The notes under the pieces are model-generated. The model was not told where the DNA came from, did not search any database, and was given only the letters and a program-made list of their open reading frames with translations. Below, in pieces: positions 12,746 to 51,246 of a DNA stretch of 64,000 nt. Made by a program: the position numbers and the translations under genes. Source of the DNA: Acidobacteriota bacterium (GTDB lineage Bacteria; Acidobacteriota; Vicinamibacteria; Vicinamibacterales; CAVVIG01); NCBI GenBank assembly GCA_003222395.1, contig QHWB01000044.1:186001-250000 (forward strand), in the 5' to 3' direction. Each line of letters begins with the position of its first letter. The stretch's first letter is position 1.

Positions 12746-12906
12746 GGGATTCGGGATTCGGGATTAGGGATTCGCAGCGAATCCCAAATCCCGAATCGAA
12801 AGTTTGAAGTCTGAAGTACGAAGCACGAAGTGAAAAGCTTGCGTGCTTCTGACTTCGTACTTCCGACTTCTGACTTTTTCACGCGGCATCGAATCCCGAA
12901 TCACGA
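12746..12906. repeat. R-B and R-C heptamer hairpins
   Basis: Four heptamers (GGGATTC, GGGATTC, GGGATTA, GGGATTC at 12746-12773), a GCAG loop and the complementary arm CGAATCCCAAATCCCGAATC (12778-12797) form hairpin R-B. A second hairpin, R-C, follows: GAAGTCTGAAGTACGAAGCA on the left (about 12803-12839) and TGACTTCGTACTTCCGACTT on the right (about 12841-12879), then another R-B piece at 12888-12906 that contains the stop codon of the SixA-like gene. Likely a transcription barrier between convergent genes. Confidence 0.92.
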
Positions 12907-24184: not shown

Positions 24185-25233
24185 TTGCCGCCGTTCTCGC
24201 GGCCATGGTCGCGCTGCAGGCGTCGAATGGAACGCTGACAGCCATCCGCGGCGTCCGTGTCGGCCATCACGCGCTCGACGAACGTCCTACCGGCTGCACC
24301 GTGATTCTCGTCGACGGCGGCGCCGTTGCGGGGGTCGCGCAGCGCGGCGCCGCTCCGGGCACGCGCGAAACGGATCTCCTGCGAGGCAGTACGCAGTCCG
24401 AAGTCAGAAGTACGAAGTCGGACGCATCCATCGACGGCGTCGATCGAATCGATGCCGTCATGTTGTCGGGCGGCAGTGCGTACGGACTCGACGCCGCGAC
24501 CGGCGTCATGCGGTGGCTCGACGAACATCGCAGCGGCCGGACGGCTTCCGCTGGCGTTCCGATCGTCGCGTCGGCGGTACTCATCGATCTGTGGGTCGGC
24601 GGCAAGCCGCGGATCCGGCCGGGCGGCGATTGCGGATATCGCGCCGCGGCGGCGGCTACTCATGCACGTGTACGCGAAGGTACGGTCGGTGCCGGTGCGG
24701 GCGCCACCGTCGGCAAATTGTCGGGTCGCGATCACGCGATGAAGGGTGGGATTGGGAGCGCCGCGATCGTGCTGCCGAACGGATTGCAGGTCGCCGCCAT
24801 CGTCGCCGTCAACCCGCTGGGCGACGTCATCGATCCGCAAACGGGCCGTGTGATCGCCGGCGTCAGGACGGCCGGCGGCTCGCTCGCCGACGCGCGCAAG
24901 CTGCTTCGCGCCGGCGCAACGATGGCGCCGGCGCCGGCGGGCGGGAACACCACCATCGGCGTCGTCGCCACCAATGCGAGGCTCACGAAGGCCGACGCCA
25001 ACCGCGTCGCGCAAATGGCCGATTCCGGGTATGCGCGCGCCATCACTCCCATCCACACGCCCGCGGACGGAGACACGATCTTTTCGCTCGCCACCGGTCG
25101 CTGGATCGGCGAAGCCGACGCCGCGACGATCGGCGCGCTGGCGGCCGACGTGATCGCGCAGGCGATCGTTCGCGCCGTCACGACGGCGACGTCGGCGGCC
25201 GGCATTCCGGCGGCGCGCGATCTGAAGCGATAA
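24181..25233 (+). CDS. P1 family peptidase (S58), copy 2
   Basis: 350 residues, a tandem paralogue of the preceding gene (shared GVRVGHHALDERPTGCTVIL, NTTIGVVATNARLTKADANR). The predicted self-cleavage Ser is S193 in GGIGSAAIVLPNG. It starts at the ATG overlapping the previous TGA. Residues about 71-81 (STQSEVRSTKS) are encoded by an R-C heptamer array placed between the ETDLL and DGVDRIDAVMLSGGSAYGLD segments, where copy 1 has only a short HPLNMVDK loop. Confidence 0.9.
   Translation: MIAAVLAAMVALQASNGTLTAIRGVRVGHHALDERPTGCTVILVDGGAVAGVAQRGAAPGTRETDLLRGSTQSEVRSTKSDASIDGVDRIDAVMLSGGSAYGLDAATGVMRWLDEHRSGRTASAGVPIVASAVLIDLWVGGKPRIRPGGDCGYRAAAAATHARVREGTVGAGAGATVGKLSGRDHAMKGGIGSAAIVLPNGLQVAAIVAVNPLGDVIDPQTGRVIAGVRTAGGSLADARKLLRAGATMAPAPAGGNTTIGVVATNARLTKADANRVAQMADSGYARAITPIHTPADGDTIFSLATGRWIGEADAATIGALAADVIAQAIVRAVTTATSAAGIPAARDLKR
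24391..24423. repeat. R-C array inside P1 peptidase copy 2
   Basis: ACGCAGTCCGAAGTCAGAAG followed by TACGAAGTCGGAC consists of GAAGTCN-type heptamers as in R-C. The comparison with the tandem paralogue, which lacks it, shows it to be an insertion in a surface loop. Confidence 0.88.
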
Positions 25234-25246
25234 GCTGCCAACCCAC

Positions 25247-26656
25247 GTGAATCTCCACCTCGTCGTTCTCACGGTGTACTCGCTCGCGTTGATGGGGATC
25301 GGTTTGTACATCGGGCGCCGCGTGCGCGGAGCGGGCGACTTCTTCGTCGCGGGCCGGACGCTCGGTCCCGGGCTCATCTTCTCGACGATGCTCGCGGCGA
25401 ATATCGGCGGCGGATCGACCGTCGGCGCCACCGCAGTCGGCTACAGCGGCGGCATCGCCGCCTGGTGGTGGGTCGGATCGGCGGCGATCGGGTCGATCGC
25501 GCTCGCGTTGTGGGTCGGCCCGGCGATGCGGCGGCTCGCGGCGGCGCACGATCTGCGAACGGTCGGCGACTACCTCGAGTTCCGCTACAACGCCACGGTG
25601 CGTGGGTTGATTTCGGCGCTGTTGTGGGTTGGATCGATCTTCATCCTCGCCGGTCAGCTCGTCGCGATCGGATCCATTCTCGAGACGGTCGCATCCATTC
25701 GCGCGGCGGTCGGATGCGCGATCGGCGGCGGCGTCATCATGGTGTATTTCGCGGCGGGCGGCCTGCTGACCTCGGCGCGCGTCAACGTCGTGCAGCTGGC
25801 GGTGAAGCTCGGCGGATTCGCCGTCGCGTTGCCGCTGGCGCTGTCGGCGATCGGCGGATGGGCGGGGGTGACGCAGGTTCGCGCGGGCGATCCCGCGTAC
25901 TGGTCTTTCTGGCGCGCCGGTCCGCCGGGCATCGCGTACCTCGCGATGCAGACGCCCTCATTCATCATTTCGCCGGGCCTGCTGCAGAAGGCGTTCGGCG
26001 CGCGCGACGACCGTGCGGTCCGCCTCGGCGTCGGCCTGAACGCGCTCGGATTGTTTCTGTACGCGATCGTGCCGGCGCTGCTCGGCATCGTCGCGCGCGG
26101 AAAGTTTCCCGAGCTGCCGTCGACGAACAACGCGCTGCCGATGATCCTCATCCACGTGCTGCCGCCGGCGGTCGGCGCGATCGGCCTCGCCGCCGTGTTT
26201 TCAGCCGAAATCAGCGCGTCCGATGCGGTGCTGTTCATGCTCACGACGTCGCTGTCGCAGGACTTGTACAAGCGCTTCGTCAACCGCGCCGCGACCGAGG
26301 CGCAGGTGCTGATCGTGGCGCGCTGGACGACGGTCGTGGCGGCGACGTTCGGCGTCGCGCTCGCGATCGCGCTGGGAAGCGTCGTGGATGCGCTGACGAT
26401 CTTCTACACGCTGCTGAGCGTCAGCCTGTTCGTGCCGATCCTGGCGGGACTGTTCGTGCCGCGCACCGGCAGCGCCGCGGCGCTCGCGTCGATTGCGGCC
26501 GGAGTCGGTGCGATGCTGATCGTGCAATTCGCCACGGGTGGCAGAGGATGGGGTATCGTCACGCCGGCGCTCGGCGGGTTGATTGCCGCGATCGCGGCGT
26601 GGGTCATCGCGTTGACAGCGGGCAGCGGGGTGGGACGGCCGCATGGACTCGTGTAG
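25247..26656 (+). CDS. Sodium:solute symporter (SSS family)
   Basis: 469 residues, about 13 membrane spans. FFVAGRTLGPGLIFSTMLAA and NIGGGSTVGATAVGY match the SSS helix 1 region, ISASDAVLFMLTTSLSQDLY the helix 8 sodium-site region with conserved Ser/Asp. The cargo is unknown; lying 13 nt after two peptidase genes it may import amino acids or peptide products. Start GTG 25247. Its TAG stop is the first part of repeat R-F (GTAGCGCGAGG). Confidence 0.9.
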   Translation: MNLHLVVLTVYSLALMGIGLYIGRRVRGAGDFFVAGRTLGPGLIFSTMLAANIGGGSTVGATAVGYSGGIAAWWWVGSAAIGSIALALWVGPAMRRLAAAHDLRTVGDYLEFRYNATVRGLISALLWVGSIFILAGQLVAIGSILETVASIRAAVGCAIGGGVIMVYFAAGGLLTSARVNVVQLAVKLGGFAVALPLALSAIGGWAGVTQVRAGDPAYWSFWRAGPPGIAYLAMQTPSFIISPGLLQKAFGARDDRAVRLGVGLNALGLFLYAIVPALLGIVARGKFPELPSTNNALPMILIHVLPPAVGAIGLAAVFSAEISASDAVLFMLTTSLSQDLYKRFVNRAATEAQVLIVARWTTVVAATFGVALAIALGSVVDALTIFYTLLSVSLFVPILAGLFVPRTGSAAALASIAAGVGAMLIVQFATGGRGWGIVTPALGGLIAAIAAWVIALTAGSGVGRPHGLV

Positions 26657-26756
26657 CGCGAGGCCTTCAGCCGAGCGTCGTGCGGCAAGCTCGCCTGAAA
26701 GGGCACGCTCGCCCATCTAAAGGCACGCTCGCCTAAAAAGGCTCGCGCTACGCGCT
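26654..26756. repeat. R-F copy 3, partly multiplied
   Basis: TAGCGCGAGGCCTTCAGCCG starts on the symporter stop codon and the block ends with AAAAGGCTCGCGCTACGCG, the complement. Between them GCTCGCCTGAAAGGGCACGC, CTCGCCCATCTAAAGGCACG and CTCGCCTAAAAAGG are three drifting copies of the inner part. Confidence 0.9.
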
Positions 26757-26776
26757 GCGGTGTTCATCGGAGATGA

Positions 26777-27559
26777 ATGGCGGAAAACCTGTTCACGCTT
26801 GAAGGCAAGACCGCCGCAATCGTCGGCGGCGGATCGGGCATCGGCGAAGCGGTGGCGCGCGGCGCCGCGGCGCACGGCGCGCGCGTCGTCGTGCTCGACG
26901 TGAGAGAGGCCGAAGCCGGCCGCGTCGCCGATCAGATTGGCCGCGGCGCGAGCTCGGCGGCGCTCGACATCCGCGATAGCACGGCGGTGAACGCGGCGTT
27001 CGATGACATCGCGAGCCAGCACAGGACGCTCGACATCGTCGTCTGCACGCCGAGCATCAACGTGCGGAAGCCAATCCTGCAATACACGCCCGGCGAATTC
27101 GAGCGCGTCGTCGATCTGAATCTGAAGGGGAGCTTCAACGTGCTGCAGGCGGCGGGCCGTGTCATGACGGCGCAGCGCAGCGGCAGCATCGTCATCTTCT
27201 CGTCGATCCGGTCGCAGGTGGTGGAGCCTGGTCAATCGGTCTACGCCATGACGAAAGCCGGCATCGTCCAGCTCGTACGGACGGCCGCTGCGGAATTCGG
27301 TCCGGCGGGCGTGCGCGTCAACGCGATCGGGCCGGGCGTCGTCGAAACGCCGCTGACCGCGCCGATCAAGGCGCACGCGGCGTGGTACGAGGCGTACGCG
27401 CACAAGAGCGCGTTGAGGCGGTGGGCGCGCGCTGACGAGATGGTCGGGCCGACGCTGTTTCTCGTGTCGGACGCCGCGAGCTACGTGACCGGCACGATTC
27501 TGTTCGCGGACGGCGGATGGACGGCGATCGACGGCCGCTTCACGCCGCCGGGGATGTGA
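26777..27559 (+). CDS. SDR family NAD(P)-dependent oxidoreductase
   Basis: 260 residues of classical SDR architecture: AAIVGGGSGIGEAVARG (cofactor loop, 14-30), a DVRE segment after strand 2 (D41), the serine in VIFSSIRS, and Y156/K160 in SVYAMTK. The end FADGGWTAIDG is typical. Acidic D41 favours NAD. It lies 5 nt before the tartrate-dehydrogenase-like gene, suggesting a hydroxy-acid or sugar-acid pathway; the substrate is not defined. Confidence 0.9.
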   Translation: MAENLFTLEGKTAAIVGGGSGIGEAVARGAAAHGARVVVLDVREAEAGRVADQIGRGASSAALDIRDSTAVNAAFDDIASQHRTLDIVVCTPSINVRKPILQYTPGEFERVVDLNLKGSFNVLQAAGRVMTAQRSGSIVIFSSIRSQVVEPGQSVYAMTKAGIVQLVRTAAAEFGPAGVRVNAIGPGVVETPLTAPIKAHAAWYEAYAHKSALRRWARADEMVGPTLFLVSDAASYVTGTILFADGGWTAIDGRFTPPGM

Positions 27560-27564
27560 GCATC

Positions 27565-28614
27565 ATGCACAAGATCGCGGTAATTGCGGGCGACGGCATC
27601 GGGAAGGAAGTGATTCCGGCGGGGATGGCGGTGCTCGAAGCGGCGGCGAAGGGCCGAAACGCCGCGCTGACGTTCACCGAGCTGCCGTGGGGATGCGAGT
27701 ACTACCTGAAGCAGCACCGGATGCTGGACGAGGACGGCTTCGAGCGGCTCGCGGGCTTCGACGCGATTTATCTCGGCGCGCTCGGATTTCCGGGAGTGCC
27801 CGATGGAGTTTCGGCCGGATTGATTCTCGCGATCCGTCAGCGCTTCGACCAGTACGTCAACCTCCGGCCGATGCGGCTGCTGCCGGGTCTCACGTCGCCG
27901 CTCGCGAACCGTGGCGCGGCGGACATCGACATGGTGTGCGTGCGCGAGAACTCGGAGGGCGAATACTCCGGCGTCGGCGGGCGCATTCACGTCGGCACGG
28001 CGCGCGAGGTGGCGCAGCAGGTCGGCGTCTTCACGCGCCACGGCATCGAGCGCATCGTCCGCTACGCGTTCGAGCTCGCTTCGACGCGGCCGCGAAAGAT
28101 GCTGGCGAGCGCGACGAAGTCGAACGCGCTCACGCACTCGATGGTGTTGTGGGACGAGGTCGCCGAAGGCGTGCGACGCGACTTCCCGTCGATCGACTAC
28201 CGCAAGTACCACGTCGACGCGCTTGCCGCGAGAATGATCACGCATCCGCGGACGCTCGACGTGCTCGTAACGTCGAATCTCTTCGGCGACATCCTCACGG
28301 ACATCGGTTCCGCGATTTCAGGGAGCCTTGGCATCGCGCCGGGCGCGAACATCAACCCGACGCGCAAATTCCCGTCGATGTTCGAGCCAATCCACGGATC
28401 GGCGCCCGACATCGCGGGGAAGGGAATCGCCAACCCGATCGGCGCCATCTGGGCCGGCGCGCTGATGCTCGATCATCTCGGGCACCGCGACGTCCACGAT
28501 CGCGTCATCAGCGCCATCGAACGCGTCGTCGCCGGCGGCACGATCCGGACGCCGGATCTCGGAGGGACCGCGACGACCAAGCAGATGGCAGACGCCATTG
28601 TTCAAGAAGTCTGA
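27565..28614 (+). CDS. Tartrate dehydrogenase-like beta-decarboxylating dehydrogenase (IDH/IPMDH family)
   Basis: 349 residues. GDGIGKEVIPAGM at the N-terminus, the substrate/metal region RQRFDQYVNLRPMRLLPG, CVRENSEGEYSGVGG and the C-terminal FGDILTDIGSAISGSLGIAP and EPIHGSAPDIAGKG are diagnostic of the isocitrate/isopropylmalate dehydrogenase family, and YVNLRPMRLLPG with the SEGEYSG loop places it with tartrate dehydrogenase/decarboxylase (TtuC, YeaU). No leu genes are nearby. The stop codon abuts heptamer array R-D. Confidence 0.88.
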   Translation: MHKIAVIAGDGIGKEVIPAGMAVLEAAAKGRNAALTFTELPWGCEYYLKQHRMLDEDGFERLAGFDAIYLGALGFPGVPDGVSAGLILAIRQRFDQYVNLRPMRLLPGLTSPLANRGAADIDMVCVRENSEGEYSGVGGRIHVGTAREVAQQVGVFTRHGIERIVRYAFELASTRPRKMLASATKSNALTHSMVLWDEVAEGVRRDFPSIDYRKYHVDALAARMITHPRTLDVLVTSNLFGDILTDIGSAISGSLGIAPGANINPTRKFPSMFEPIHGSAPDIAGKGIANPIGAIWAGALMLDHLGHRDVHDRVISAIERVVAGGTIRTPDLGGTATTKQMADAIVQEV

Positions 28615-28655
28615 CAGGGCAGAGGGCAGAGGGCAGAGGGCAAAGGGCAGAGGGC
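28615..28655 (+). repeat. R-D left array (GGGCAGA heptamers)
   Basis: Five contiguous heptamers, GGGCAGA three times, GGGCAAA, GGGCAGA, plus a partial one (28617-28655), beginning 2 nt after the stop of the tartrate-dehydrogenase-like gene and ending 5 nt before the stop codon of the four-helix-bundle gene. Confidence 0.95.
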
Positions 28656-28660
28656 GACTT

Positions 28661-29122
28661 CTATAGGCCGTTGCCTCGATTCGGTGACGATTTGGCTGTC
28701 CGAATGGCCGCCCGAATCATTGCCAGAAGCTGATTGGCCTCGCTGACTTCCCACATCAGTTCGGACGTCGTGGCATACCCGTTCTTGATAATGAGCCGCA
28801 GCCAGTACGTCGTTTCACGCGCCTCCTTGCGTGAAATGCTCATCTTCGCGATGTAGTCCGGTTTGGTCTGCCCTTCCTGGGCTTCTTCCGCATTTGAGCC
28901 GATCGACGTTCCGCATTCCATCAGCTGGCGGCCGACGAGACGCGCCGAAGAACCGCGTTGGTCCAGTCGATCGCACAACTTCAGAATACGCGATGCGAAC
29001 TCAAACGCTCTTTCACAGATGATCGAGTCAGACATGCCAATGAGCACGTTCAACAGTTGCGCCGTCGACATGGCGCGTGTTTTTCCGAACATTTCAGCCG
29101 GCACCTGTCTGACGCGTGGCAA
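28661..29122 (-). CDS. Four-helix-bundle protein (23S rRNA intervening-sequence protein / Avd-like)
   Basis: 153 residues from ATG 29122; ATGs at 29092, 29071 and 29035 are also possible, since the family usually has about 115-130 residues. Conserved features: ICERAFEFASRILKLCDRL, LVGRQLMECGTSIGSNAEEA and IAKMSISRKEARETTYWLRL, ending in a helix ANQLLAMIRAAIRTAK. Homologues are encoded in 23S rRNA intervening sequences and, as Avd, in diversity-generating retroelements, and bind nucleic acid. Here the gene stands free between two heptamer arrays in opposite orientation. Confidence 0.9.
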   Translation of the reverse strand: MPRVRQVPAEMFGKTRAMSTAQLLNVLIGMSDSIICERAFEFASRILKLCDRLDQRGSSARLVGRQLMECGTSIGSNAEEAQEGQTKPDYIAKMSISRKEARETTYWLRLIIKNGYATTSELMWEVSEANQLLAMIRAAIRTAKSSPNRGNGL

Positions 29123-29160
29123 TTACTTCACGCACGTAAACGCGTCGCACTGCAATTCGT

Positions 29161-29297
29161 GCCCTGCGCCCTGCGCCCGCGCCCTGCGCCCTGCGCCCTG
29201 CGCCCTGCGCCCTGCGCCCTGCGCCCTGTGCCCTGTGCCCTGTGCCCTTGCCCTGTGCCCTGTGCCCTTTGCCCTTTGCCCTTTGCCCTTTGCCCTA
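29161..29297 (-). repeat. R-D right array (GCCCTGC to GCCCTTT heptamers), inverted relative to the left array
   Basis: About 19 tandem units. Reading rightwards they change stepwise: about seven GCCCTGC, then GCCCTGT units, then GCCCTTT units, ending at GCCCTAC. On the minus strand this is GGGCAAA, GGGCACA, GGGCGCA, the same core as the left array. It ends 2 nt before the stop codon of the TonB-dependent receptor. Confidence 0.95.
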
Positions 29298-29298
29298 C

Positions 29299-32200
29299 TC
29301 AGAACACGTATCTGACCCCCAACTGAACCACGCGTCCGTCGCCGGCCGTCGTGATCCGGCCGAAGTTCGCCGTCCCGATCTGATTCCCCGGTTGACTGAA
29401 TCGCACCTGGTTGAACAGGTTGAACATCTCGAGCCGCAGCTGCAGCCGCTGGCCGCTCATGACGTCGACGTTCTTGAACAGCGACAGGTCGGTCGACGCG
29501 AACCCCGGTCCGCGCACGGGGTTTCGCGGCTCGGTGCCTGGCCCCGATCCCGTCGTCGCGATCGGCCGCCGAGCGAAGCAGGACGTGTCGAACCACTGAT
29601 CGGCCGTGCGCGGCGCGTTCGCGTCCGGATCGCACGTCATGTTCGGGCGATTCGTCATGTAGCGGATGTCGGTGAGCGGATCGAACACGACGAACGGAAA
29701 TCCGGTCTGCGCCTGCACGATGCCGTTCAGCTGCCAGCCGCCGAGCAGCGCGTGCAGCGCGCGGTTCGAGCCGTCCGGCGCCGGCAGCTCGGCGCCGAAG
29801 CTGACGACGAAGCGGTGGCGCGCGTCGAAGAGCGCCGGTCCCCATTCGTACGCGAGCGACCGATCGAAGCTCGCCTGATCGCCGATCGTGACCGGCAGCG
29901 CCGGGCGCTGATCGCCGCCGATGTTCAGGCCCGAGACGTGATCCATCGACTTGCTCAGCGTGTACGACGCGAGGAAATTGATCCCGTGCGTCGGCCGCAT
30001 GCGGATGCTCGCCTGCAGCGCGTTGTACTCCGACTCGGCGACCGAGAACGTCGGCCGCACCAGCGAGAACGCCGGGAACAATCGGGCGCCCGGCGCGGTC
30101 TGACCCGGCGTGAACAGACCGGGATTCACCTCCATGAAGATCGGCAGATGGCGTCCGAGCGATCCGACGTAGCCGACCTCGGCAGCCATCGACGAACCGA
30201 TCTGATGCTGGACGGTCGCGTTGTAGTGATACGCGTACGGCGTCTGGAAATCGTTGGCCCAGCCGATCACGATGAGGCCTGGCGGAAAATCGGCCGCGGC
30301 GCCGGTCGCGGTATTCAGCGGGCTCTGCAAGGTCATGGCAGCCGGCGCGTCGATCTGCAGGAGCGGGGTAAACGGCGGCGCCAGCACGCCGTTCTGGAAG
30401 AAGTCGCCCTGCCCGGCGAGCGTGTCGTAGAACAGTCCCCACGCCGCGCGCACCGTCGTTCGGCCGTCGCCGTTGACGTCCCACACGGCGCCGAGCCGCG
30501 GCGCGAAATTGTTCTTGTCGGTTGCGTAGGTGCCGCGCGGTACGCCTGGATCGCCGGGATAGACGAGCCCGGTCGGCGCGTTCGGGAACTTCACCGATTT
30601 CTCACCCGGATGGAACGCGTTCAGCGCGTCGTTGACGTCGACGAACGGCGGCGTCACCTCGTACCGCACGCCGTAATTCAGCGTCAACCGCGCCGACGGC
30701 CGGAACTCGTCCTGGGCGAACAGCGCGTAGCTCGGCGCGTTGCCGTCCTGCGCCTGGTTCTTCGTCGTCCGACGGAACTGGAACGGAAGGCCGAGCAGAA
30801 AATCGGCGGCGGCGTTTCCCGTGTAGTTTCCTGAAAACGTGTAGTCGCCGTTCGGCCGGTTGATGAACGCGATCACCATGTGCTGCCGCTGGACGTCGCC
30901 GCCGAACTTCAACTGGTGACGCCCCTTGATCCACGTGAAGTCGTCGCTGACCTCGTACACCTGATTGAGGCGGTTGACGAACGGCTGCTGCGGATCGCCG
31001 AGGTTGAAGAACCCGGTGACGCCGATGAACGCCAGCCCCTGCGCCGCCGCGTTGGTATTCGGCACGTTGATCCCGTAGTCCTGATTGCGCAGGCCGCTCG
31101 TCACCGCCGGATTCGCCGCGATGCGGTTCGACGCGAAGCGCGCCACGTTGATCGCGTCGTTGCCCAACACGTGCGTGTCCGACAGCATGAAATCCTGCAG
31201 CGTCGCCTTCGATTCCTGCGCCGTCGGCGTGATGGTGACGCCGTTCGGCGGCGGTTGGACGCGATCGGTTGTCGTGCGGAGATAGCGCACCAGCAGCGAG
31301 TTGGCGCGCGAGATCTGGTGGTCGCCGCGGAGGCCGGCCGAGTCGCGATCGTCGGTCGTCGTCGGCGACACGACGTAGCGGGTCGCGCCGCTGTTCGCGG
31401 CCGGCACGAAGTCGTTGATCAACTTGAGCGCCGACGGATCGAGGCGGCTGGGCGGAATGACGTTGCCGGCGAACGGCTGACCGGTGAGCGGATCGCGGAT
31501 CGCCGCGCCGCCCGAGAAATCGCCGCGCCGCTGCGCATCCGACAGCACGACGATGTTCGCCGTATTGCCCTGCTGATTGCGGTAGCCCTCGTAGTACCCG
31601 AACAGGAACAACTTGTTCTTTTGAAGCGGACCGCCGGCCGCGCCGCCGAACTGATTCTGTTTCAACGCGGGCTTCGGCTGGCTCGACGGCGCGAAGACGT
31701 TCCGCGCCTGCAGCGCATCGTCGCGGTTGAACTCCCACGCCGACCCGTGCAGCTGGTTGCTTCCCGATTTCGTGACGACGTTGACGACGGCGCCGGCGTT
31801 GCGGCCGAACTCGGCGGTGTACGAGTGCGTTTCGATCTTGAATTCCTGGATGGCGTCTGGCGGCGGACGCAGCACGAACCCGGTGTTGAACGTGTCGTTG
31901 TTGGTCGTGCCGTCGAGCAGGAAGCTGTTGGACTGGTTGCGCATGCCGTTGACGCTGTAGCTCGCCGTGGCCGCGCCGAATCCGCCCGGCGTCGCATCGC
32001 CGGTTTGACCGCCGAGACCTGCAGGCGGCGCGACCACGCCCGGAATGAGTGTGCCGAGCTGCGCGAAGTTCCGACCGTTGAGCGGCAGCTCGACCACTTT
32101 TTGCTGATCGATCGTGATGCCGAGCGTGGCGTGCGCCGTCTCGACGAGCGGCGTCTGCCCCGACACCGTGACGCTCTCCTGGAGTCCCCCGACCGGCATC

Positions 32201-40722: not shown

Positions 40723-40880
40723 CGAGACACAGAGACGAAAGAACACCACAGAGACACAGAGACACCGAGAAAAGCAAACGCGGCGATCGCTGAGCACGCA
40801 GTGTGGACGCCGAGGCGCTCTGTATCTCCGCGTCTCGGTGGTTGATTTTCTTTGCGTGCTCAGCGGTCTCTGCGTTTGCC
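40723..40880. repeat. R-I: ACACAGAGA-type inverted repeat
   Basis: GAGACACAGAGACGAAAGAA, CACCACAGAGACACAGAGAC and GAGAAAAGCAAACGCGG on the left pair with CTCCGCGTCTCGGTGG, TTTTCTTTGCGTGCTC and GGTCTCTGCGTTTGCCC on the right. This is the purine-rich 8- to 9-nt repeat also at 48298-48372. No gene seen in it. Confidence 0.88.
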
Positions 40881-47571: not shown

Positions 47572-48397
47572 GGGTTCTTTCTCGCGGGACCGTACCGGAT
47601 TCGACCCGCGCCGGGGCGCGCTTCAGGATCCACCAGATCACGAAGAGGAACGCGATCGCCACGGCGACGAAGGTGGCGGCGAAGAGCCACAGCGTTCTGT
47701 AGAGGATCGATTGCGTCTGCATGCGCGCTTCGATGTCGACGGGTGCGCCGCGCAGGCGATCCGCGAGCGTCTGCTCCCAGACGAGGATGTTGCCGCGGCG
47801 GACGTCGCCGCCGGAGTTGTTGCCGACGATCTTGCTCGGCAGATGCAGTCGGAAGGCGACGAGCTCGCGGCCGCTCCAGCTGGCGCCCGCACCGGGGCCG
47901 CCGTCGCGCCCCGGCGGCGCGCCGATCGCCTGCTTGAAGACGTAGCGATCGCCGTCCTGATAGAACTGGTACGCCGACCACGAGAACGGCGCGACGGCAT
48001 TCAGCCGCCTGATGTCGTCGACGTCGAGCCGGACGTGCACGAAGCGGCGATTGTTGCGGCGCGAGGATCGCACCCACGCGACGCGCGTCGCCGGCGACGA
48101 GTAGTAGGCGCGAACCGCGTCGCGATCGACGCGCGCCGTCGGCCTCGCGTCGAACGAAGTGCCGTGCAGCGCGTTGAGCGCCGGGAGCGAAGCGTTGACG
48201 TAGACCGTCGCAGTGCCGTCGAGCGAAAGGTAGACGTCTTCTTCGTATTCGTACTGGCGGAAAAGGCGCGTGGGGCTGCACGCGGTATCGAATGCCAAGG
48301 AAACGCAGAGAGCGCAGAGACCGCAAAGAACGCGGAGTCGCGCTGCGGACTTTGCGTGATCCGCGTTCGATCGTGAGCGCGTTGCCCGAAAGCGCAT
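47561..48397 (-). CDS. Exported membrane-anchored hypothetical protein with repeat-derived signal peptide
   Basis: 278 residues from ATG 48397. The mature part is beta-rich (EYEEDVYLSLDGTATVYVNA, DDIRRLNAVAPFSWSAYQFY, KIVGNNSGGDVRRGNILVWE) and ends in one transmembrane helix (LWLFAATFVAVAIAFLFVIW) with a basic tail. The N-terminus, residues 9-33, comes from repeat R-I and reads RLRVLCGLCALCVSLAFDTA, a hydrophobic stretch that ends before a Cys and would work as a signal or lipoprotein peptide. Function unknown. Confidence 0.75.
   Translation of the reverse strand: MRFRATRSRSNADHAKSAARLRVLCGLCALCVSLAFDTACSPTRLFRQYEYEEDVYLSLDGTATVYVNASLPALNALHGTSFDARPTARVDRDAVRAYYSSPATRVAWVRSSRRNNRRFVHVRLDVDDIRRLNAVAPFSWSAYQFYQDGDRYVFKQAIGAPPGRDGGPGAGASWSGRELVAFRLHLPSKIVGNNSGGDVRRGNILVWEQTLADRLRGAPVDIEARMQTQSILYRTLWLFAATFVAVAIAFLFVIWWILKRAPARVESGTVPRERTHAS
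48298..48372. repeat. R-I copy forming a signal peptide
   Basis: AACGCAGAGAGCGCAGAGAC, CGCAAAGAACGCGGAG and the complementary GCGGACTTTGCGTGATCCGC form an R-I element wholly inside the coding region. On the minus strand the purine repeat becomes CTCTGCG/TTTGCGG codons for Leu, Cys, Ala and Val. Confidence 0.9.
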
Positions 48398-51133: not shown

Positions 51134-51246
51134 ATCGGGAAGTGGTGAATCGGGAAATCGGGTAATTGGATAATCGGGTAATTGGATAATTGGGTAATTA
51201 GGTAATTGGATAATGTAATCGAGTAGTCTTTGGCCGGGTAATTGGC
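51131..51246. repeat. R-E: GGGTAATT/GGATAATT octamer array
   Basis: Starts on the polA stop (TGAATCGGGAAGTGGTGAAT), then GGGTAATTGGATAATCGGGT, AATTGGATAATTGGGTAATT and AGGTAATTGGATAAT, a period of eight. Two units with an inverted CC/GG context recur at 51233-51246 just ahead of the STAS gene. Very AT-rich for this genome. Confidence 0.92.

Follow-up and report, generated by a model that had tools for sequence, protein, structure and literature searches.

The closest described counterparts of the locus reported here are the intervening sequences (IVSs) of 23S rRNA. In Coxiella and Leptospira, as the accessible parts of the literature describe them, IVSs are hairpins of ~430-440 nt whose loop carries an ORF of the S23/IVP family. 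According to the available portion of PMC4990558, the Coxiella IVS is closed by a 28-bp terminal stem and has, immediately upstream of its S23 ORF, tandem GACAGAT heptamers that vary from strain to strain; the same text cites Ralph and McClelland for the hypothesis, dating from 1993, that IVSs are mobile. In those parts of the respective sources that were available, PF05635 is noted to resemble Avd (PMC10053308), IVP genes are placed in cas loci (PMC3936711), inserts are described in CPR rRNA (PMC11270868) and a figure legend names IVP (PMC10910872).

Heptamer repeats have been described separately. Rehm et al. (2015) reported GGGNATC heptamers in Xanthomonas and Nostoc and counted convergent inverted pairs for two genomes, 70 in one and 75 in the other (PMC4692102). 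The accessible part of that paper finds no general association of the repeats with mobile elements and draws no link to an IVP gene. In the P6b region of the Nostoc trnL intron, paired 7-nt repeats form stem-loops whose classes I and II interchange and whose origin is called not known in the available text of PMC4476775. The heptamers and stem of the Coxiella IVS, the 1993 mobility idea and the inverted GGGAATC pairs of Xanthomonas are thus already known. The open-licence literature, in its accessible parts, contained no link of IVP genes to repeat arrays or repeat-armed hairpins outside rRNA, a description elsewhere being possible.

The locus described here is a cassette in which an IVP gene is enclosed by inverted heptamer arrays. 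It resembles a 23S IVS in its protein family and in the position of its ORF, but its neighbours are protein genes and no rRNA is near it, and cassettes of this kind are set apart from the published description of IVSs by unit-matched arms of 7-, 8- or 9-mers, by gene-less derivatives and by a unit that follows the protein. GGGAATC, known from Xanthomonas, forms the arms of a Luteimonas cassette and is close to the GGGATTC of a Dokdonella cassette. The Nostoc trnL stem-loops, compared by description, likewise consist of paired 7-nt repeats, but they lie within a group I intron and the available text mentions no gene in the loop.

The cassette and its protein

The window is the whole 64,000-nt stretch analysed, taken from contig QHWB01000044.1 of an Acidobacteriota bacterium (genome G000). 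The cassette has the following parts.

28615-29298, no strand assigned: whole cassette, in the spacer of the Iso_dh and TonB-type genes
28616-28655, forward strand: left arm, heptamer array AGGGCAG, 5.7 units, 40 nt, the G-rich strand pointing inward
28661-29035, reverse strand: IVP/S23 four-helix-bundle gene, likely 124 aa (listed ORF 28661-29122, likely ATG at 29035)
29161-29296, reverse strand: right arm, ~20 heptamers GCCCTGC/GCCCTGT/GCCCTTT, 136 nt, reverse complement AGGGCAN, inverted relative to the left arm

The cassette occupies the entire spacer between two convergent genes, with the Iso_dh stop at 28614 and the stop of the TonB-type outer-membrane gene at 29299. The left array begins one base beyond the Iso_dh stop, and the right array ends two bases before the stop of the TonB-type gene. 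The arms run in opposite orientation and enclose one four-helix-bundle gene whose stop lies 5 nt from the left array, as the first-pass annotation of this DNA had described; they have AGGGCAN in common. When the cassette is folded as RNA, the arrays close the predicted stem (z=-4.06, 20 shuffles); z values for RNA folds, this one included, were -3.5 and -4.1, with the arrays in the closing stem. An IVP-family ORF inside the loop of a terminal inverted repeat is a trait shared with IVSs, whereas Rfam gave no RNA, and hence no 23S rRNA, in window positions 26500-31000.

The window protein matches PF05635 (1.1e-17, 64.6 bits, cut-off 33.8) and TIGR02436 (1.2e-22, 80.2 bits, cut-off 24). Its AlphaFold (AF2) model, with a mean pLDDT of 92.1, has four long helices and was matched by Foldseek to 2rld (TMt 0.92) and 2gsc (TMt 0.84). 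The earlier assignment of the gene to the four-helix-bundle IVP family is upheld by two curated cut-offs and by the predicted fold. The model also matches Avd of diversity-generating retroelements (DGRs; 4dwl, TMt 0.82) and the DGR RNP subunits in 8ub7 (TMt 0.68-0.73), with poor Foldseek E-values of about 0.1-0.6 for the Avd matches. The bAvd profile gave weak matches in four of six IVPs (best 2.9e-5) and none over the cut-off: the window protein had no match, and the other five scanned reached at most 25 bits against 40. The four-helix-bundle fold is common to IVP and Avd, but the IVP profile match stays under the cut-off and the contig of the G000 cassette has no reverse transcriptase. Core IVPs, with a median net charge of +1 (n=82), are not strongly basic.

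Arrays beside IVP genes across phyla

In the family of G000, 25 of the 27 sampled genomes have IVPs; 93 of 104 hits were used, the 11 below the Pfam cut-off being left out. Among the 76 loci with 500 bp on each side of the gene, period-7 arrays lay on both sides in 26, on one side in 17 and on neither in 33. Two-sided arrays were found in 10 of 2358 control windows from the same loci and in 2 of 3715 from 400 kb of G000, counts that are not independent because control windows overlap each other. The denominators of the period-7 counts exclude loci with less than 500 bp next to the gene, and those of the alignment and any-period tests exclude loci with less than 300 bp.

The count was extended to named loci, the best 80 of 582 relatives found, whose record titles include Acidobacteria, Bacteroidota, Cyanobacteria, Planctomycetota, Nitrospirae, Proteobacteria, Omnitrophota and others. 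Of the 69 with room, again from the best 80 of 582, period-7 arrays were two-sided in 26 and one-sided in 15, against 25 and 177, respectively, of 2014 controls. Arrays of periods 5, 6, 8-11 and 13 were both-sided in just 0-3 of these 69 loci. When any period from 5 to 15 was allowed, unit-matched inverted arrays were detected at 88 of 152 IVP loci (the family of G000 plus over a dozen phyla) and at 14 of 1481 controls. The periods of the 88 matched loci were 7 (58), 8 (16), 9 (9) and 14 (5); in the other 64 loci such arrays were absent at the threshold used. The first-pass annotation had proposed comparing array frequency at homologues with that at random genes, and the enrichment over the controls is very strong.

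Two-sided arrays are mostly inverted. All two-sided family cases (n=30) comprised 27 inverted, 2 direct and 1 tied, and the named cases (n=32) 27 inverted and 5 direct. Among 30 more loci from the phylum of a Treponema-titled genome (L302 excluded from the count), 13 were two-sided at a lower threshold, with 8 inverted, 3 direct and 2 tied, so that the direct minority stands at 2/30, 5/32 and 3/13. The inward-reading strand was G-rich in 54 of 62 two-sided cassettes, and array length varied. In the family, gaps from one array to the next form two classes, one of 350-700 bp (32 pairs, of which 27 span an IVP) and one of 30-200 bp without an IVP (17 pairs, of which 16 are inverted). Other pairs without an IVP were half inverted and half direct at 0-30 bp (16 pairs), and 6 inverted, 6 direct and 4 tied at 700-1500 bp (16 pairs).

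In local alignments, inverted similarity of the flanks exceeded the 95% null at 51 of 56 loci with two-sided, 22 of 32 with one-sided and 52 of 64 with no period-7 arrays; the corresponding values for direct similarity were 12/56, 3/32 and 10/64 (25/152 in total). Inverted similarity above the 95% null was lacking in 27 of the 152 loci. Synteny of the gene without arrays had been named at the outset as evidence against a cassette. Syntenic IVPs do exist without period-7 arrays, but the 52 of 64 loci just mentioned still show inverted flanks, partly as 8- or 9-mers. In three genomes that belong to different genera, a syntenic IVP (L096, L104 and L105) had no detected period-7 arrays throughout; L096 has an inverted repeat and L104 has period-8 arrays.

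Period-7 arrays are not rare in G000 (28 in 400 kb, about one per 14 kb), which would fit a reading in which heptamer arrays are common in intergenic DNA through chance or bias and IVP genes merely happen to be there. The same-loci controls, the inverted orientation, the matched units and a period shared with the protein lineage contradict this reading, which we consider extremely improbable. The pattern of arrays around IVP genes is confirmed as real and general.

Repeat units, protein lineage and dispersed arrays

The repeat word and its length follow the IVP lineage. IVP identity correlated with unit distance among 49 family cassettes (r=-0.41, 0/1000 permutations), among the pooled 99 cassettes (r=-0.22, 0/1000) and among 4708 cross-genome pairs lacking homologous flanks (r=-0.20, 0/1000); for named versus family loci alone, r was -0.12 (6/1000). 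The correlation is carried by the closest pairs and is weak beyond them, with just 9 of 73 non-syntenic pairs at 60-85% IVP identity lying within one unit mismatch. On the IVP tree, in which many forks are unresolved because of the few columns, period changed 10 times among 87 rows, whereas 300 shuffles gave 23.5 changes on average and never fewer than 20. This covariation could partly represent whole cassettes inherited together. Copying from arm to arm gained no support from shuffling of unit order: the variant order was not colinear, exceeding 95% of shuffles in 5 of 48 where 2.4 would be expected.

G000 has six PF05635 genes, all of them with inverted arrays of matched unit: four of heptamers, one of octamers and one of 9-mers. 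Two of these genes first seemed array-less, and it was the finding of inverted period-9 and period-8 arrays that brought the count to six of six. Each of the four period-7 cassettes has one unit for its inverted pair, and this unit differs from cassette to cassette.

Arrays away from IVP genes repeat these words. Of 113 dispersed arrays, 71 were within one mismatch of a cassette unit of the same genome, against 17.0 expected (0/2000); 30 of 37 matched in G000, and 41 of 76 (about 10.5 expected) when G000 was excluded. This is the pattern that an autonomous element with non-autonomous copies would leave. In the window, five of the seven other period-7 arrays and one of the two other period-8 arrays (51148-51214) exactly match the unit of another G000 IVP cassette, whereas none of the three period-9 arrays matches any of the six. 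The matching features are as follows.

1922-2074, no strand assigned: gene-less inverted heptamer pair ATTGCTG ... CAATCTG, unit of G000 IVP cassette L004
12746-12772, forward strand: heptamer array GGGATTC, unit of IVP cassette L005
17609-17638, reverse strand: heptamer array CGAATCC (other strand GGATTCG), unit of IVP cassette L005
46040-46064, forward strand: heptamer array TTCGGGA, unit of IVP cassette L005
51148-51214, forward strand: octamer array AATTGGGT/AATCGGGT, unit of period-8 IVP cassette L006

Judged by its unit, the gene-less pair at 1922-2074 would be a MITE-like derivative of cassette L004, and the other short repeats of the window appear to belong to the same story as the IVP cassette. 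Arrays of CACAGAGA / CGCAGAGAG at 40747-40770 and 48304-48333 are akin to CACAGAG-type words of a relative and are without a match to a G000 cassette. Heptamers of the AAGTATG / GAAGTAC type at 12800-12830 and 24386-24418 match no G000 IVP cassette either; these arrays are perhaps remnants of a lost master element.

Filled, empty and deleted sites

The 19 Iso_dh orthologues were scanned over 900 nt past the stop, and arrays were detected by script in six: G000 and G020 (period 7) and G021, G017, G014 and G012 (period 8). Viewing 11 of these sites by eye added inverted repeats in G001, G022 and the IVP-bearing G007; the remaining 7 of 19, apart from the window's own, were viewed over 60 nt only. 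Across the orthologues, the site holds an IVP cassette, a gene-less hairpin of another unit or nothing, and in G023 and G005 the next gene begins at the Iso_dh stop. The gene-less octamer GAATGCAG after Iso_dh in G021 is the unit of cassette L086 of the same genome. After the Iso_dh stop of G020 (L340), a second, period-9 inverted array of the CACAGAG type lies, by eye, seemingly in the loop of the period-7 hairpin; the two hairpins seem to be nested elements.

A spacer in Luteimonas offers a larger series. With one Luteimonas cassette and its flanks of 1.1-1.2 kb as query, the spacer was read in all 52 genomes of the genus. Its right gene is a biotin carboxylase gene by the annotation of matching records, and its left gene is presumably accB. 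The spacer was empty in 29 genomes (5-17 bp) and held a full cassette of 438-463 bp in 13, one deleted cassette, two gene-less heptamer hairpins, and other contents in seven. The deleted cassette measures 157 bp and has lost its interior, both ends matching the cassette of another species; the two gene-less hairpins, recognised by eye, are self-complementary. The seven other contents are five palindromes and two residues of 40-45 bp. Empty sites, which the first-pass annotation had suggested looking for in sister strains, occur both here (29/52) and, in relatives, at the window's own locus.

The five palindromes (L259, L276, L252, L253 and L255) are GC-rich and REP-like as judged by eye; their presence in five genomes would make this spacer a possible hot spot for several kinds of hairpin element. 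In seven cassettes of the G058 type (L229-L231, L233, L235, L237 and L238), the left end is, by eye, an inverted ~11 bp copy of the end of the upstream gene. This copy is perhaps a snap-back trace or a terminator, and its occurrence in seven cassettes may go back to one event. At the Luteimonas site, where the species are diverged and the 5-17 bp spacer is replaced, no target-site duplication could be discerned.

Cassette carriers do not form one clade. On the flank tree they need at least 9 changes, and a single clade was rejected (p-AU 3.9e-8). G064 and G087 are sisters by their flanks (support 100/99), yet their cassette IVPs are just 57% identical and their words differ; the G087 IVP is 76% identical to that of G058, which is placed elsewhere on the tree (the rows of G028, G062 and G082 are excluded from this identity comparison). 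Presence and absence on the tree alone cannot separate gain from loss. The genus has 17 IVPs in 16 of 52 genomes, four of them outside this spacer, with arrays on both sides in G054, on one side in G057, and on neither at threshold in G052 and for the second IVP of G084. G054 combines an IVP cassette at another spacer with a gene-less hairpin of similar word at this one. The IVP gene of G052 (L287), without recognised heptamer arrays, adjoins a plain palindrome, and we take its neighbours to be dnaK and dnaJ.

These states bear on whether the cassette moves at all. It might be a conserved regulatory or RNA-processing module whose IVP binds an intergenic hairpin and whose arrays grow by slippage in place, as the synteny of several cassettes across genera and the variable array lengths would allow. 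Against such a module speak the several states of a single orthologous spacer (empty, full, deleted or gene-less) in carriers that are not one clade, the dispersed arrays that use the cassette's unit, and the different units at the same site in different species, and we regard an immobile cassette as improbable. Synteny marks many similar cassettes as vertically inherited, with movement infrequent.

Candidate enzymes and carriers

An IVS-like retroelement would move by excision of a hairpin transcript by an RNase III-like activity and copying back by a reverse transcriptase in trans, with IVP acting like the Avd of a DGR. The fold matches to 4dwl and 8ub7, the weak bAvd matches and the RNA folds that favour a stem are in keeping with this, and in the genus Luteimonas 9 of the 16 IVP-bearing genomes had an RVT_1 match, compared with 6 of the remaining 36 (Fisher p 0.007). 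This association may reflect larger genomes, however, and 7 of the 16 IVP-bearing genomes have no RVT_1 match. In G000, RVT_1 matches lie on contigs 96 and 8 and the cassette on contig 25, and the Avd comparison is weakened by its E-values and by the missing bAvd match of the window protein. We treat retrotransposition in trans as a tentative and rather unlikely explanation. The first-pass annotation had inferred an insertion related to IVSs that moves between intergenic regions, and had named the part played by Avd in retroelement target-primed copying. Insertion and mobility are supported by the present data; target-primed copying would be conjecture, given the IVP-bearing Luteimonas genomes without RVT_1.

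REP/RAYT and MITE systems consist of an autonomous element and many gene-less palindromic derivatives with common ends, and RAYTs act on REPs. Cassettes are alike in having a gene-bearing element and gene-less derivatives with common ends; they differ in that their ends are tandem arrays, no recombinase gene is recognised in them (Y1 being the transposase family searched) and no target duplication is evident at the Luteimonas site. A Y1 (IS200/REP-associated) transposase could move the hairpins with IVP as cargo or regulator, and the REP-like palindromes at the Luteimonas spacer in five genomes point in this direction. Y1_Tnp is present in 11 of 16 IVP-bearing genomes of the genus and in 22 of 36 others, but it is not enriched with IVP there. 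The link of a Y1 transposase to the repeats, as in REP/RAYT, was not found: no Y1 match was retrieved in 7 of 25 IVP-bearing family genomes and 5 of 16 in the genus Luteimonas, some of them incomplete, so that single absences are soft. G054 and G082 have neither Y1 nor RVT_1 matches. Mobilization by Y1 is quite improbable.

One family IVP matched 23 plasmid records, mostly with cyanobacterial names, and none of the phage records. Among the 10 of 28 plasmid matches listed for the Luteimonas cassette DNA, the downstream flank alone matches, annotated, where annotated, as biotin carboxylase.

A proposed minimal hairpin element

The cassette is probably selfish, a minimal hairpin element built as array–IVP–inverted array, whose gene-less derivatives resemble MITEs. 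This reading draws on comparison, which has shown the anatomy, the enrichment, the inversion, the covariation of protein and repeat, the sharing of units and the filled, empty and deleted orthologous sites. Two features of MITEs are seen, namely terminal inverted repeats and internally deleted non-autonomous copies. Counting against the reading are the synteny of many cassettes, the minority with direct arrays, the lack of an evident target duplication and of a recognised recombinase, the non-colinear arms and the modest charge of the protein. Each end is a tandem array of a single 7-, 8- or 9-nt word, inverted relative to the other end, and either strand, as RNA or single-stranded DNA, could thereby close into a hairpin that has the IVP gene in its loop. 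IVP, of Avd/S23 fold and the sole recognised gene, would recognise the repeat of its own element, since word and length follow the protein lineage; it may bind the repeat stem and help mobility. At the sites read, elements lie in short intergenic spacers and often directly abut a stop or start codon. Loss of the interior would yield gene-less hairpins, and these, together with solitary arrays of the same word, could spread within a genome, presumably served in trans by an intact cassette. Our first guess at the mechanism is that replication or repair in the host, or else a borrowed polymerase, captures a folded single strand while IVP serves as a hairpin-binding chaperone; reverse transcription in trans would be the second.

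Kinship between cassettes and 23S IVSs is plausible, given the same protein family and the published heptamers in one IVS, and IVSs are probably a special case of the element. Because Rfam retrieved no rRNA at 40 other IVP loci (20 array-less named loci and 20 from the phylum of the Treponema genome), the IVS link rests on the literature; an unrelated DUF805 RNA was retrieved in L322. What we regard as new is the tie between an IVP gene and repeat-armed hairpins outside rRNA. To our knowledge, no class of mobile elements combines such ends with an IVP gene; if rRNA IVSs are counted as an established mobile class, the cassette is a far-reaching variant of it.

A wider reading, which in our judgement could go either way, is that IVP with 7-, 8- or 9-nt arms forms one minimal mobile class that crosses phyla and moves without a known recombinase. 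Its protein would read both the word and its length, and 23S IVSs, the Xanthomonas and Nostoc heptamers and the cyanobacterial trnL stem-loops would all be its insertions or gene-less remnants. This offers one candidate explanation for the role of S23/IVP, the origin of 23S IVSs, the inverted heptamer pairs of several phyla and the genome-specific words. If true, a mobile element of ~450-700 bp with one non-enzymatic-looking gene would be present in the over a dozen phyla covered here, and a repeat-reading code, pairing a small protein with a 7-, 8- or 9-nt word, would become directly testable.
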